Origin: Sphingobium sp. Ant17
Lineage (GTDB): Bacteria > Pseudomonadota > Alphaproteobacteria > Sphingomonadales > Sphingomonadaceae
Assembly: GCF_000588875.1 (NCBI RefSeq)
Contig: NZ_JEMV01000015.1
Span: 1-64,000 of the forward strand
Length of the DNA stretch: 64,000 bases
Reading direction: 5' to 3'
Under the pieces are notes generated by a model. It ran no database searches. It was given only the letters and a program-made list of their open reading frames with translations, and was not told the origin of the DNA. A program made the translations under genes and the position numbers. Within the stretch, counting starts at the first letter, position 1; each line of letters starts with the position of its first letter. Below are positions 37,483 to 41,687 of this stretch, piece by piece.

Positions 37483-38463
37483 TCAGCCCAAACCCCATAG
37501 CGTGCCGGGTTGTAGCAGTCCTTCCTGCAAGACGCAGGCGCCAGGGCGATCACGGGCGAGCAGCAACGCCCCGTCCAGGTCGATCCAGTCTGCCCCCTGC
37601 GCCACCAGCGCGGCGGGTGCGATGCCCAGTGACGTACCGAGCATGCAGCCGACCATCAGCCGGAAGCCGCGCTCTTTCGCCTCGCGCGCCAGAGCGAGGG
37701 CTTCGGTCAGCCCACCCGCCTTGTCGAGCTTGATATTCACCGCGTCGAAATCGCCCAGTCGGTCGAGATCGGCACGGGTGTGACAGCTTTCGTCGGCGCA
37801 CAACGGCAGGGGGGCGTGAACACCCGCGAGCCGTGTTTCCTCACCATGGACCACTGGCTGTTCGACCATCTCCACCCCCAGAGCGGCCAGAGCGGCCGCT
37901 TCGGCAGCGATATCGCGATCATGCCAGCTTTCATTGGCATCGACGATCAGCCGCGCGGTGGGTGCGCCGCGTCGCACGGCAGCGACCCGGTCGCGGTCCC
38001 CCTCGCCCGTCAGCTTGCATTTGAGTAGCGCGAAGCCGCGTGCCGCCGCCGACCGCGCATCGGCCTCCATCTGATCGGGATCACCCAGACTGATGGTGAA
38101 GGCTGTCGGCAAAGGCGCAGGCGCAGGCGCTGCCAGTCCCGCCAGTTGCCAAACCGGGACGCCCGCCTGCTTCGCCGCCAAGTCCCACAAGGCGCAGTCG
38201 AGCGCATTGCGCGCCGCGCCGCGTGGCATGGCGGTCAGCAAGGCTTCGCGGTCCAGCGGTCCGGTATAGGCTCGCAAGGCCGCGACGCAGCCTTCCGCGC
38301 TTTCGCCCTCATAATAGATGGCCGTGCCTTCGCCTTGGCCGAAATGGGTGCCGTCGCCCACGGTGCAAACAACGACATCAACATGGGTCTTTGCCCCCCG
38401 ACTGATGACGAACGCCCCGGCCACAGGCCAGCGTTCAGCGGTCGCGGACACTATACGGATCAT
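37483..38463 (-). CDS. L-Ala-D/L-Glu epimerase (enolase superfamily)
   Basis: A dipeptide epimerase that recycles muropeptide L-Ala-D-Glu. Enolase-superfamily residues are in order: Lys pair in FALLKCKLTGEGD, metal ligands D in IVDANESWHD, E in VEQPVVHGEE and D in LCADESCH, and the second Lys in AVNIKLDKAGGL. Length 326 aa is typical. I start at MIRIVSATAERWP, because AGGA lies about eight bases upstream. An earlier ATG has no such site. It is divergent from the methyltransferase/anti-sigma-like gene. Confidence 0.85.
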   Translation of the reverse strand: MIRIVSATAERWPVAGAFVISRGAKTHVDVVVCTVGDGTHFGQGEGTAIYYEGESAEGCVAALRAYTGPLDREALLTAMPRGAARNALDCALWDLAAKQAGVPVWQLAGLAAPAPAPLPTAFTISLGDPDQMEADARSAAARGFALLKCKLTGEGDRDRVAAVRRGAPTARLIVDANESWHDRDIAAEAAALAALGVEMVEQPVVHGEETRLAGVHAPLPLCADESCHTRADLDRLGDFDAVNIKLDKAGGLTEALALAREAKERGFRLMVGCMLGTSLGIAPAALVAQGADWIDLDGALLLARDRPGACVLQEGLLQPGTLWGLG

Positions 38464-38564
38464 CGTGCTTTCCTGCGTCATCGGTTGACCATGAACGAGA
38501 CCGTCATATGAGCGAAACATAAAGTCCGGCATAGTCCTGCGATTCAACAAGGAGCCTATTTTCC

Positions 38565-39869
38565 GTGACATCCCGCGACCTGACCGGTTTCCTGCCTCTG
38601 AACGAAGCCAACACGGCACACAGCGACTGGCCCCGCCGCCTGTCGGACATGGCATGGCGCATCGGCTTTGGCGCCATCGGCTGGCCTTGGCTGCTTGCCA
38701 GCCTGTCTGGCGGACGCCCGGCGGACAAGCGCGCGTTGCTGGACGAGTTGGGCCTGCCCCATGATGCGCTGCCACATCTGGGCAGTTGGAAGGCCGATGT
38801 CGGCTTTCTGCGGCATATCGTGCGGGAGATTGCCCGGGTGCGGCCCGCCCATGTGGTGGAACTGGGTGCGGGCGCTTCCTCGCTGATCGCGGCGCGGGCG
38901 TTGCAATTGCATGGTGGTGGGCGCTTGCACAGTTTCGACCAACATGGCGGCTTCGTCGACGCGACGCGGCAATGGCTGGGCGATCATGCGATCGATGCCG
39001 ACATCCGCCATGCGCCACTGACGCATGAAAGCGCGGATTGGCCCGGTCGCTGGTATGCGCTGGAGGATGTGCCCGAGCGCATCGACCTGATCATCATCGA
39101 CGGTCCACCGTGGAGTGTGCATCCACTGGTGCGGGGCGCGGCGGACAGCCTGTTCGCACGATTGTCGCCCAATGGCGTGGTGTTGCTGGACGATGCCGCG
39201 CGCCCCGGCGAACGGATCGTCGCGCGGCGCTGGCGCGAGCGCTGGCCGCATATCGACTTTCGCCTGATGCATGACGGGACGAAAGGCACCCTGGTCGGCC
39301 GCCGCCGCGACCTGACAGCGCCGGTTGCCAATGATAATGACGATGGACGGTCGTGGCGGCACATGCGCCGTGCGGCGGCGATCGCCGCGCTCCTGGGCAT
39401 CGGCTGGATCGCGCGGGGCGAATTGGGGGAATTTCCCCAGAGCGCGCAGGCGAGCAGTTTTCTCGATGAAGCGGCGGCTTCGCGCCGCGCCGGGCTGTTG
39501 CGACAGGACATGGCTTCCCAGGTCGAAAGCGCGACCTTCGACCCGGCGGAAATCGAGCGGTCGACCGGGATTGTCCTGCCCCTTTTGCCCGGCGACTGGC
39601 GCGTGACCGACGTGCAGCTTTTCCCTACGAGCGACAGCCCCGCCATAGCGATGACGATCGTGACGCCCAAGGACGAAACGCTATCGCTCTTTGCCGATCG
39701 GGCCGAGACGCCCGCCGAAGCCACGCCGCTGGTCGCACGCCGCGCCGATGAAGTGGTCGCCTATTGGGAAGTCGGCACCATGGCCTATGCATTGACGGGC
39801 CGGGGCGATACACGCCGCGTCCTGCAACTGGCTGGCACCATCGCACCCATGGGCCGGACGCCCCATTGA
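38565..39869 (+). CDS. Methyltransferase/anti-sigma-factor-like membrane fusion
   Basis: One continuous 434-aa frame from a GTG preceded by AAGGAG. Residues about 60-245 form a class I SAM-methyltransferase: VVELGAGASSLIAARAL (motif I, near 98), LHSFDQHGGF, IDLIIIDGPPW (near 172) and GVVLLDDAARPGE. Residues 268-283 form one membrane helix. Residues about 290-430 (SFLDEAAASRRAGLLRQDM, STGIVLPLLPGDWRVTDVQL, VVAYWEVGTMAYALTG) resemble the periplasmic half of alphaproteobacterial anti-sigma factors, which normally carry a zinc-finger domain at the N-terminus. Here a methyltransferase takes that place. No sigma factor gene is adjacent. Domain identities are by eye. Confidence 0.65.
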   Translation: MTSRDLTGFLPLNEANTAHSDWPRRLSDMAWRIGFGAIGWPWLLASLSGGRPADKRALLDELGLPHDALPHLGSWKADVGFLRHIVREIARVRPAHVVELGAGASSLIAARALQLHGGGRLHSFDQHGGFVDATRQWLGDHAIDADIRHAPLTHESADWPGRWYALEDVPERIDLIIIDGPPWSVHPLVRGAADSLFARLSPNGVVLLDDAARPGERIVARRWRERWPHIDFRLMHDGTKGTLVGRRRDLTAPVANDNDDGRSWRHMRRAAAIAALLGIGWIARGELGEFPQSAQASSFLDEAAASRRAGLLRQDMASQVESATFDPAEIERSTGIVLPLLPGDWRVTDVQLFPTSDSPAIAMTIVTPKDETLSLFADRAETPAEATPLVARRADEVVAYWEVGTMAYALTGRGDTRRVLQLAGTIAPMGRTPH

Positions 39870-39900: not shown

Positions 39901-41687
39901 ATGGAGGATGCCCCGCACACCACCGCCCGCGCCGACGCGCGCCCCGCCCTTGGCAGCCTGGCGATGCTGTGGCGGTTTGCGCGCCATTATCCAGGACGGA
40001 TCGCCGGGGCATTGGCCGCCTTGATCGTGTCGTCAGCGGCGACCTTGGGTATCCCAAGCGGCTTTCGCCTGGTGATCGACAAGGGGTTCATGGGCGGCGG
40101 GGACATCAGTCGCTGGTTCGAATATCTGCTGCTGATCGTGATCATCCTCGCGCTGGCGAGCGCGCTGCGCTTCTATTTCGTGTCCTGGCTGGGCGAACGG
40201 GTCGTCGCCGATATTCGCAGCGCCACGCAAGCCAATCTGCTGCGGCAGGCACCACGCTTCTTCGAGGAAAATCGTCCGTCCGAAATCGCATCGCGCATGA
40301 CCGCGGACACCGCCATCGTCGAGCAGGTGGTCGGATCGACCGTCTCGGTCGCACTGCGCAATCTGGTGACGGGCGTGGGTGGCCTCCTGTATCTATTCGC
40401 TCTGGCCCCCAAGCTCGCCGCATTGCTGTTGCTGGGTATTCCGGTCATCCTGGCGGTGCTCATAGGCCTGGGCCGCAAGGTGCGCGGCCTGTCGCGCGCG
40501 AGCCAGGACCGGTTGGCCGATGTCGGCAGCGTCACCAGCGAAGTGCTGGGCGCGATGAAGATCGTCCAGGCCTTTGGCCAGGAAGCGCGCGAGGCGATGC
40601 GCTTCGACGCCACCGTCCAGGCGGGTTTTGCGACCGCGCGCCGCCGGATCGCCCTGCGCGCGATCATGACGCAGTGGTGATCGCTTTGGTGTTCGGATCG
40701 ATCACCGCCGTCATGTGGCAGGGCGCGTTGGACGTGGCGGCGGGGCGGCTGTCGGGCGGAAGCATCGCGGCGTTCGTGCTGACCGGCGGGCTGGTCGCCG
40801 GTGCGTTCGGGTCGTTGTCGGAAAGCTGGGGCGACCTGCTGCGCGGCGCGGGGGCAGCAAGCCGCCTGCATGAGCTAATGAGCGCCACGCCGGATATTCT
40901 GCCGCCTGCCGTGCCCCTGCCCATCCCGGTGACCAGCAATGGCGCGCGCCTGACCTTCACCGACGTCCATTTCCATTATCCGACCCGGCCCGACCAGGCT
41001 GCGCTGAATGGAGTGTCGCTGGACATTGCGCCGGGGGAAACCGTGGCGGTCGTAGGTCCGTCGGGCGCAGGCAAGACGACGTTGATCCAATTGGCGCAGC
41101 GCTTCTACGATCCCGACCAGGGCGTCGTTCGGTTGAATGGCGTGGCCCTGCCCGATGCCGACCCCGCCGCTGCCCGCGCGATGATGGCGATAGTGCCGCA
41201 GGACAGCGTGATCTTCGCCGCCTCCGCCCGCGATAATCTACGCTACGGCCATTGGGACGCGAGCGACGCGCAGATATGGGACGCCGCCCGCGCCGCCAAT
41301 GCGGAGAGCTTCCTGCGCGCCTTGCCGCAGGGGCTCGACACATTCATGGGCGAAGGCGGCGCGCGCCTGTCGGGCGGACAGCGTCAACGGCTCTCGATCG
41401 CCCGTGCGCTGCTGCGCGATGCGCCGATCCTGTTGCTGGACGAAGCGACATCGGCGCTCGACGCGGAGTCCGAACGGCTGGTGCAGGACGCGTTGGGACG
41501 GCTGATCCAGGGACGGACGACGATCGTCATTGCCCATCGCCTTGCCACTATCCGGGCGGCCGACCGGATCATCGTGATGGATGAGGGCCGGATCGTCGAA
41601 CAGGGCGATCACGCCGCGCTGGTGGCGCAAGACGGGCTTTATGCGCGCCTCGCCAGCCTGCAATTTCAAGATACGCCCGCGGCCTGA
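39901..41687 (+). CDS. ABC exporter, fused permease and ATPase (one frameshift)
   Basis: An MsbA-like half-transporter of about 595 aa, one ABC type-1 membrane domain followed by one ATPase. Six membrane helices lie in the first 320 residues. The ATPase has Walker A GPSGAGKTTLIQ, Q-loop IVPQDSVIF, signature LSGGQRQRLSIARAL and Walker B ILLLDEATSALD. The frame breaks near 40668-40671, where one G or C is missing (MTAVVIALVFGS expected). Without correction it would end at a TGA at 40678. The substrate is unknown, probably a lipid or drug. Start ATG 39901 is 31 bases after the fusion gene. Confidence 0.85.

Follow-up and report, generated by a model that had tools for sequence, protein, structure and literature searches.

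A predicted O-methyltransferase fused to the sensory half of an ECF anti-sigma factor in Sphingobium and other sphingomonads

In Sphingobium sp. Ant17, a single reading frame joins a SAM-methyltransferase to the membrane segment and periplasmic half of an ECF anti-sigma factor, with no sigma factor gene nearby. Tentatively, and with a probability of about 0.46, the product is read as an O-methyltransferase that is tethered to the membrane, has an envelope glycan or lipid as its substrate and would be adjusted by its anti-sigma-derived sensor module. The parts are known, and the combination appears to be new, above all in that four types of enzyme carry the same sensory half without a sigma partner. 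No such fusion appears in titles or abstracts among the matches listed from the open-access literature, a scope outside which lie most subscription papers and all bioRxiv preprints. Searches of the literature on Sphingobium anti-sigma factors with exopolysaccharide, and on sphingomonad glycolipid methylation with MsbA, returned nothing relevant. The gene lies in a stretch of 64,000 nucleotides that was analysed as a whole (the window) and has the following parts and neighbours.

37483 to 38481, minus strand: divergent neighbour of the DgcA / L-Ala-D/L-Glu epimerase type (start placed by eye; relative L063 scores above the DgcA cut-off)
38565 to 39869, plus strand: the fused gene, 434 aa, GTG start, stop included
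38565 to 39317, plus strand: methyltransferase part, residues 1-251, presumably cytoplasmic (PF13578, O-methyltransferase fold, conserved motifs)
38628 to 38705, plus strand: predicted helix of the methyltransferase part, residues 22-47, that includes a hydrophobic stretch (model; hydropathy 1.2-1.6 in two fusions)
39351 to 39413, plus strand: presumed single membrane segment, about residues 263-283 (hydropathy, model; charge net positive before it and net negative after it)
39444 to 39509, plus strand: helix after the membrane segment, residues 294-315 (model; aligned in anti-sigma factors)
39540 to 39842, plus strand: predicted RseB-CTD-like domain with an AYW signature, residues 326-426 (model; Foldseek and VIA)
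39901 to 41687, plus strand: MsbA-like ABC exporter in two frames with a break near 40671, the next gene after the fusion (matches of relatives)

A preliminary description of this DNA had proposed one frame with a SAM-methyltransferase, a membrane helix and an anti-sigma-like half. This architecture is borne out by the frame itself, by the PF13578 match and by BLAST (E 1e-28): residues 1-251 make up the methyltransferase, and the C-terminal half comprises the membrane segment, the following helix and the RseB-CTD-like domain. GC3, taken over 40 codons at a time, lies at 0.70-0.85 along 38565-39869 and is even across the junction. A first search found a full-length match in 27 of 61 genomes, all of them in the window's genus (27 of 37, its own genome included). 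Among 94 genomes of the genus, the unbroken full-length fusion occurs in 54, again with the window's own; in three more it is frameshifted or cut by contig ends (G981, G983, G239), and in 37 a profile search found no fused copy, the genome counts of the profile searches being lower bounds because these scored 9-38 candidates per genome. The fusion is thus dispensable, given the size of this last group, which counts against the reading given above. The artefact that the preliminary description had wished to see excluded, two genes joined by assembly or annotation, has a negligible probability: the next gene is frameshifted near 40671 and the fusion itself is frameshifted in a few relatives, yet it runs unbroken through those 54 genomes and through other genera.

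A wider scan of named relatives, in which 80 of 106 were retained, gave 40 loci with an intact fusion, two with a frameshifted one (L074, L075), one cut by a contig end (L083) and 37 with the methyltransferase alone. The fused loci come mostly from Sphingobium, and others belong to Rhizorhabdus, Alteraurantiacibacter, Aurantiacibacter, Croceibacterium and a few further groups. The standalone methyltransferases are found mostly in Sphingomonas, Sphingopyxis and Erythrobacteraceae, and they stop where the linker of the fusion starts. Within the stretch examined, none of the 37 standalone loci encodes the C-terminal half, so that two adjacent genes in relatives, which would have spoken against a genuine fusion, are ruled out. 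The frameshifted fusions in some Sphingobium genomes (L074, L075; G981, G983) reflect either sequencing error or recent loss. Some Sphingobium genomes also hold a standalone copy of the methyltransferase (L032, L033, L039, L120), a frame of 256 residues that is about 51% identical and has lower GC3; these copies sit in a repeated segment whose flanking frames look transposon-like by eye.

Separate origins of this fusion were considered. A quick tree placed the fused rows in two spots, a result that a constrained test did not uphold. On the methyltransferase part, the tree with the fused enzymes as a single clade was 7.76 log units better. Since that tree is not rejected (p-AU 0.62), a single origin is favoured rather than demonstrated.

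The N-terminal half is probably a divalent-metal-dependent O-methyltransferase. Pfam Methyltransf_24 (PF13578) matches residues 98-210 with 38.3 bits against a gathering cut-off of 26.3 (E 2.6e-9); NCBIfam gave no significant match to the fusion. An alignment of 59 sequences, comprising the window's protein, 34 of the 40 intact fusions and 24 of the 37 standalone enzymes, keeps E99-L-G-x-G103, D125, D179-G-P-P and D209-D210 invariant. As both the SAM motif and the acidic positions are unvaried, the enzyme shows no sign of decay. The AlphaFold model of the whole protein has a pLDDT of 82.7 and a pTM of 0.60 and is poor around residues 250-294. With this model, Foldseek reached 8c9t_C, a cation-dependent O-methyltransferase, at E 3.3e-9, and VIA gave Z 19.4 to 8c9v (171 aligned, rmsd 2.3); COMT, SafC and MycF are among the VIA matches listed, and Z lies at 17-19 in the best 50 rows. 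The fusion has the predicted fold of these cation-dependent enzymes, with its own SAM motif and acidic positions conserved, and differs from them in its extra N-terminal hydrophobic helix and its C-terminal membrane and periplasmic module. D179, D209 and D210 are putative metal ligands, assigned from known motifs rather than from a superposition. The hydrophobic helix of residues 22-47 falls in the region common to the standalone relatives. Because these relatives align over it, the ancestral methyltransferase may already have leaned on a membrane.

The C-terminal half is homologous to the corresponding half of alphaproteobacterial single-pass ECF anti-sigma factors, which we take to be of the RsiW/COG5662-like group; the likeness takes in the membrane segment, the next helix and the periplasmic domain. 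BLAST with this half gave E 1e-28 to 7e-23 against seven anti-sigma factors. The matches in the window's genus are frames of 247-292 residues, and they are taken for anti-sigma factors because of their short N-terminal domain and the ECF sigma frames nearby. A profile built from 24 Sphingobium-type fusions only matched 69 frames that had been classed as anti-sigma (E 9e-41 to 4e-4); at E<1 it matched not one of 13,808 reversed frames. Had the half shown no likeness to anti-sigma factors, the preliminary description would have lost its basis; the likeness is strong. Class-wide, 68 of 387 genomes match the domain at E<=0.01 with gradually falling scores, and in the part of these that was classified nearly all matches are short frames with an ECF frame nearby.

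The two kinds of protein differ in what precedes the shared half and in what lies beside the gene. In the fusion, the N-terminal sigma-binding domain is replaced by the methyltransferase. The preliminary description had spoken of a usual cytoplasmic zinc finger being absent and replaced: the replacement stands, whereas the zinc finger does not prove usual in the relatives. The motif HxxxCxxC occurs in none of 54 anti-sigma relatives in the 110 residues before the shared domain (frames above 60 bits), and one relative has a zf-HC2 match below the cut-off. An ECF gene is present in 71 of 72 anti-sigma loci and in none of 85 enzyme-fusion loci, with flanks of about 1.5 to 6 kb per side; these are counts of loci and not of independent events, because some loci are the same place twice. 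Outside the 72, ten domain-bearing loci were left unclassed (L179, L182, L183, L188, L190, L197, L221, L222, L225 and L228), and an ECF frame is found in eight of them. For the window, the earlier remark that no sigma gene adjoins the fusion extends to its full 64 kb, in which two ECF queries found no ECF frame at E 1e-5.

The presumed membrane segment would place the C-terminal half in the periplasm. The membrane helix of the preliminary description, at residues 268-283, is a real hydrophobic stretch, yet it is short and weakly hydrophobic: the top 17-residue stretch is 271-287 with a mean hydropathy of 1.4, and the whole-protein model has a helix at 263-278. The charge difference across the segment fits an outside C-terminus in all 84 enzyme-fusion frames and all 47 anti-sigma frames counted, which score above 60 bits and have a long enough match. 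A single-pass inner-membrane protein with a cytoplasmic N-terminus and a periplasmic C-terminus is therefore the topology that we infer from sequence.

No family model names the periplasmic part. Searches of Pfam and NCBIfam with the C-terminal part gave no significant match (best DUF4245, E 0.03), the MucB_RseB model of Pfam did not match at E<=1, and sequence searches of the PDB gave one chance-level match each for the C-terminal half and the whole protein. Folded alone, the part is modelled with a pLDDT of 79.9 as a pair of helices followed by six strands and a closing helix. The structure prediction proposed in the preliminary description led to the C-terminal domain of RseB/MucB: RseB/MucB takes all of the first eight Foldseek ranks (E 2.0e-4 to 2.3e-3), and VIA on RseB residues 218-311 gave Z 8.2 (90 aligned, rmsd 3.0), a moderate match that may, by the tool's yardstick, reflect a common arrangement. 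The Thermotoga protein 1vr8 scores Z 8.0 against the same domain. The predicted fold aligns with about residues 218-314 of RseB at an identity of only 10-20%. The N-terminal lipid-binding domain of RseB/MucB is absent from the fusion, which has about 150 residues after the membrane segment, aligned to the C-terminal domain, and in the fusion the domain sits in cis on a membrane protein. In RseB/MucB, the first periplasmic helix of RseA/MucA is bound by the C-terminal domain, which starts at about residue 210, and lipid A is bound mainly by the N-terminal domain (PMC7400510). Because of this division of labour, docking and gating of a helix are a likelier role for the domain than binding a lipid directly; the lipid A pocket of MucB lies in the N-terminal domain (PMC7400510), which the fusion lacks, and this counts against the proposed reading. 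The RseB-CTD-like fold suggests that these anti-sigma factors may contain, in cis, a counterpart of the partner that RseA/MucA bring in from outside. SsdC of Bacillus subtilis is a further RseB-like protein that is anchored in the membrane and has been repurposed (PMC7769602).

Its distribution shows the sensory half to be separable: several enzymes that are unrelated to one another carry it, and no sigma gene lies close to them. A family-wide search of 397 genomes gave 64 domain matches in 55 genomes: 23 methyltransferase-24 fusions, 34 anti-sigma factors, three FkbM fusions, two Glyphos-like fusions and two unclassified frames, namely G406 (the same as L197) and the fragment G526. The module is found on three further kinds of enzyme.

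Loci L026, L027, L030, L031, L140, L193, L282 and L283: FkbM methyltransferase fusions
Loci L136, L231, L232, L278 and L279: sulfotransferase fusions
Loci L191, L192, L276 and L277: Glyphos_transf-like fusions

The FkbM assignment rests on PF05050 matches in the tested members L026, L031, L193 and L282. The sulfotransferase fusion (PF00685) is present in 2 of 60 genomes of its genus, the two being 85% identical. In the genus of the Glyphos-like enzyme, 2 of 14 genomes have the fusion, and relatives of the enzyme's N-terminal part occur in all 14; Glyphos_transf (PF04464) is matched by 9 of 12 aligned family members (best E 1.2e-7) and not by the fused protein itself. PRPP-synthetase matches of this enzyme were judged to be chance. 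Judged by its length and coverage, the frame of G987 also resembles an FkbM fusion. At L197:2036-3016, a copy of the module follows an unrecognised proline-rich N-terminal frame, which could be a frameshift or a further architecture. A tree of the domain (88 rows, 144 columns, several long branches) places the enzyme fusions in two places, with the methyltransferase-24, sulfotransferase and Glyphos-like fusions in one and the FkbM fusions among the anti-sigma factors, and thus implies at least two changes between anti-sigma factors and enzyme fusions. The place of the sulfotransferase is unsure because its row is long.

Gene neighbourhoods, called by greedy frame picking with one Pfam- or NCBIfam-tested member per cluster, add a partial context. 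An MsbA-like exporter lies downstream on the same strand in 32 of the 43 loci L042-L084, within 300 nt in 28 of them; the tested relative, L046, scores 770.4 with TIGR02204 (MsbA_rel), just below the cut-off of 780.4. No exporter was found in the stretch examined of the 37 standalone loci. Several fusions outside Sphingobium have none adjacent, and different genes stand next to those of Rhizorhabdus and of the Aurantiacibacter type. The exporter of the window is split in two frames and is intact in relative L042 (595 aa); the break is an assembly error or a true pseudogene. The FkbM fusion of L031/L281, which are the same place, adjoins a sulfotransferase and a group-1 glycosyltransferase, with formyltransferase and ATP-grasp genes beyond. 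Inspection by eye showed no glycan cluster around L278, L279, L276, L277, L280 or L282/L283. A group-1 glycosyltransferase-like gene also lies close to the anti-sigma loci L021-L025, L029, L284 and L285 (two tested with Pfam, the others by eye), and for one such gene that was scanned N-acetylglucosaminyl phosphatidylglycerol synthase is the best NCBIfam model, below its cut-off. As glycosyltransferase-like genes recur near these anti-sigma factors, the ECF system itself may serve envelope glycolipids.

FkbM methyltransferases, sulfotransferases and Glyphos-type enzymes often act on surface polymers or lipids. The enzymes that bear the module probably decorate cell-surface molecules, and an envelope substrate is favoured for the methyltransferase because of these companion enzymes, the exporter and part of the neighbourhoods. 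The glycan context is only partial, since L031/L281 has glycan-type genes and L276-L280 and L282/L283 lack them by eye; it also counts against the reading that the standalone relatives lack the module and that 16 of their 37 loci carry a purA-type gene (one member tested with Pfam), which is uninformative on glycans. In the proposed scheme, the cytoplasmic half of a single-pass inner-membrane protein would methylate, at the inner leaflet, the precursor of an envelope glycan or glycolipid. The periplasmic half would report the state of the envelope without a sigma factor and would adjust how active the enzyme is, where in the membrane it sits or whether proteolysis releases it; the control may be allosteric or may work through regulated proteolysis. 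In Sphingobium, the methylated product might be handed to the MsbA-like exporter encoded next. The coupling proposed in the preliminary description, of an envelope signal to methylation and not to the release of a sigma factor, fits these data because the fusion retains the sensory half, lacks both the sigma-binding half and a sigma gene, and has its counterpart in three other enzyme types with the same exchange.

The module may instead be a plain anchor that carries no signal and only tethers the enzyme near its substrate or exporter, which we regard as unlikely while giving it real weight. An anchor could well be common to several unrelated enzyme types, and a GW motif stands in the membrane segment of most enzyme fusions and is missing from most aligned anti-sigma factors. 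Yet a bare helix would do for anchoring, and about 140 residues beyond it have been kept. Across 30 aligned fusions and anti-sigma factors, A40, R50, P76, P79, W82, P125, A136-Y137-W138 (the AYW signature) and L147, numbered within the aligned piece, are invariant. It is this conservation of periplasmic residues that disfavours a mere anchor.

Proteolytic release, in which envelope stress would lead to cleavage of the module as in RseA/MucA and the freed methyltransferase would gain a changed access to substrate, is rather improbable. The membrane segment and the next helix are retained and align with those of anti-sigma factors, and MucB, whose C-terminal domain binds the anti-sigma helix, shields MucA from cleavage by AlgW (PMC7400510). 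Against release, the literature passages used for comparison describe no regulated proteolysis of this anti-sigma group. Very improbable is a decoy, in which the periplasmic domain would tune an ECF response by competing for a periplasmic partner that it shares with a true anti-sigma factor. Some genomes do combine both kinds; G009, for one, carries an ECF-linked anti-sigma factor of this group together with the fusion and an FkbM fusion. In the window's own genome, however, the only other domain match is at chance level (E 0.18), and for that reason no partner system of the group is seen there. The adjusted, membrane-tethered methyltransferase remains the preferred reading.

In the RsgI-type anti-sigma factors of Clostridium thermocellum, the sigma-binding half is reportedly kept and different sensing domains are attached to it. 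This compared case (PMC12203970) likewise shows recombination of anti-sigma halves; the present fusion, in contrast, retains the sensory half and exchanges the effector. The ECF case of Brucella involves a six-helix anti-sigma factor of the NrsF type, a different group (PMC8315932).

A broader proposal sees the sensor as a general plug-in, attached on two or more occasions to four or more kinds of enzymes that make or decorate envelope polymers, so that the signal would act directly on methylation, sulfation or glycerol-phosphate transfer and bypass transcription, with ECF-linked and enzyme-linked copies reading the same kind of signal. This proposal is possible, and we consider it doubtful rather than improbable. 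ECF anti-sigma factors are usually viewed as one unit, with a sensor outside and a sigma clamp inside. If the module still senses, the fusions would form a short circuit from the state of the envelope to its chemistry, with gene expression bypassed. Since copies of the module exist both with a sigma factor and without one, the enzyme fusions may also offer a handle on anti-sigma sensing, in which the read-out would be chemical, as methylation or sulfation, rather than a regulon.
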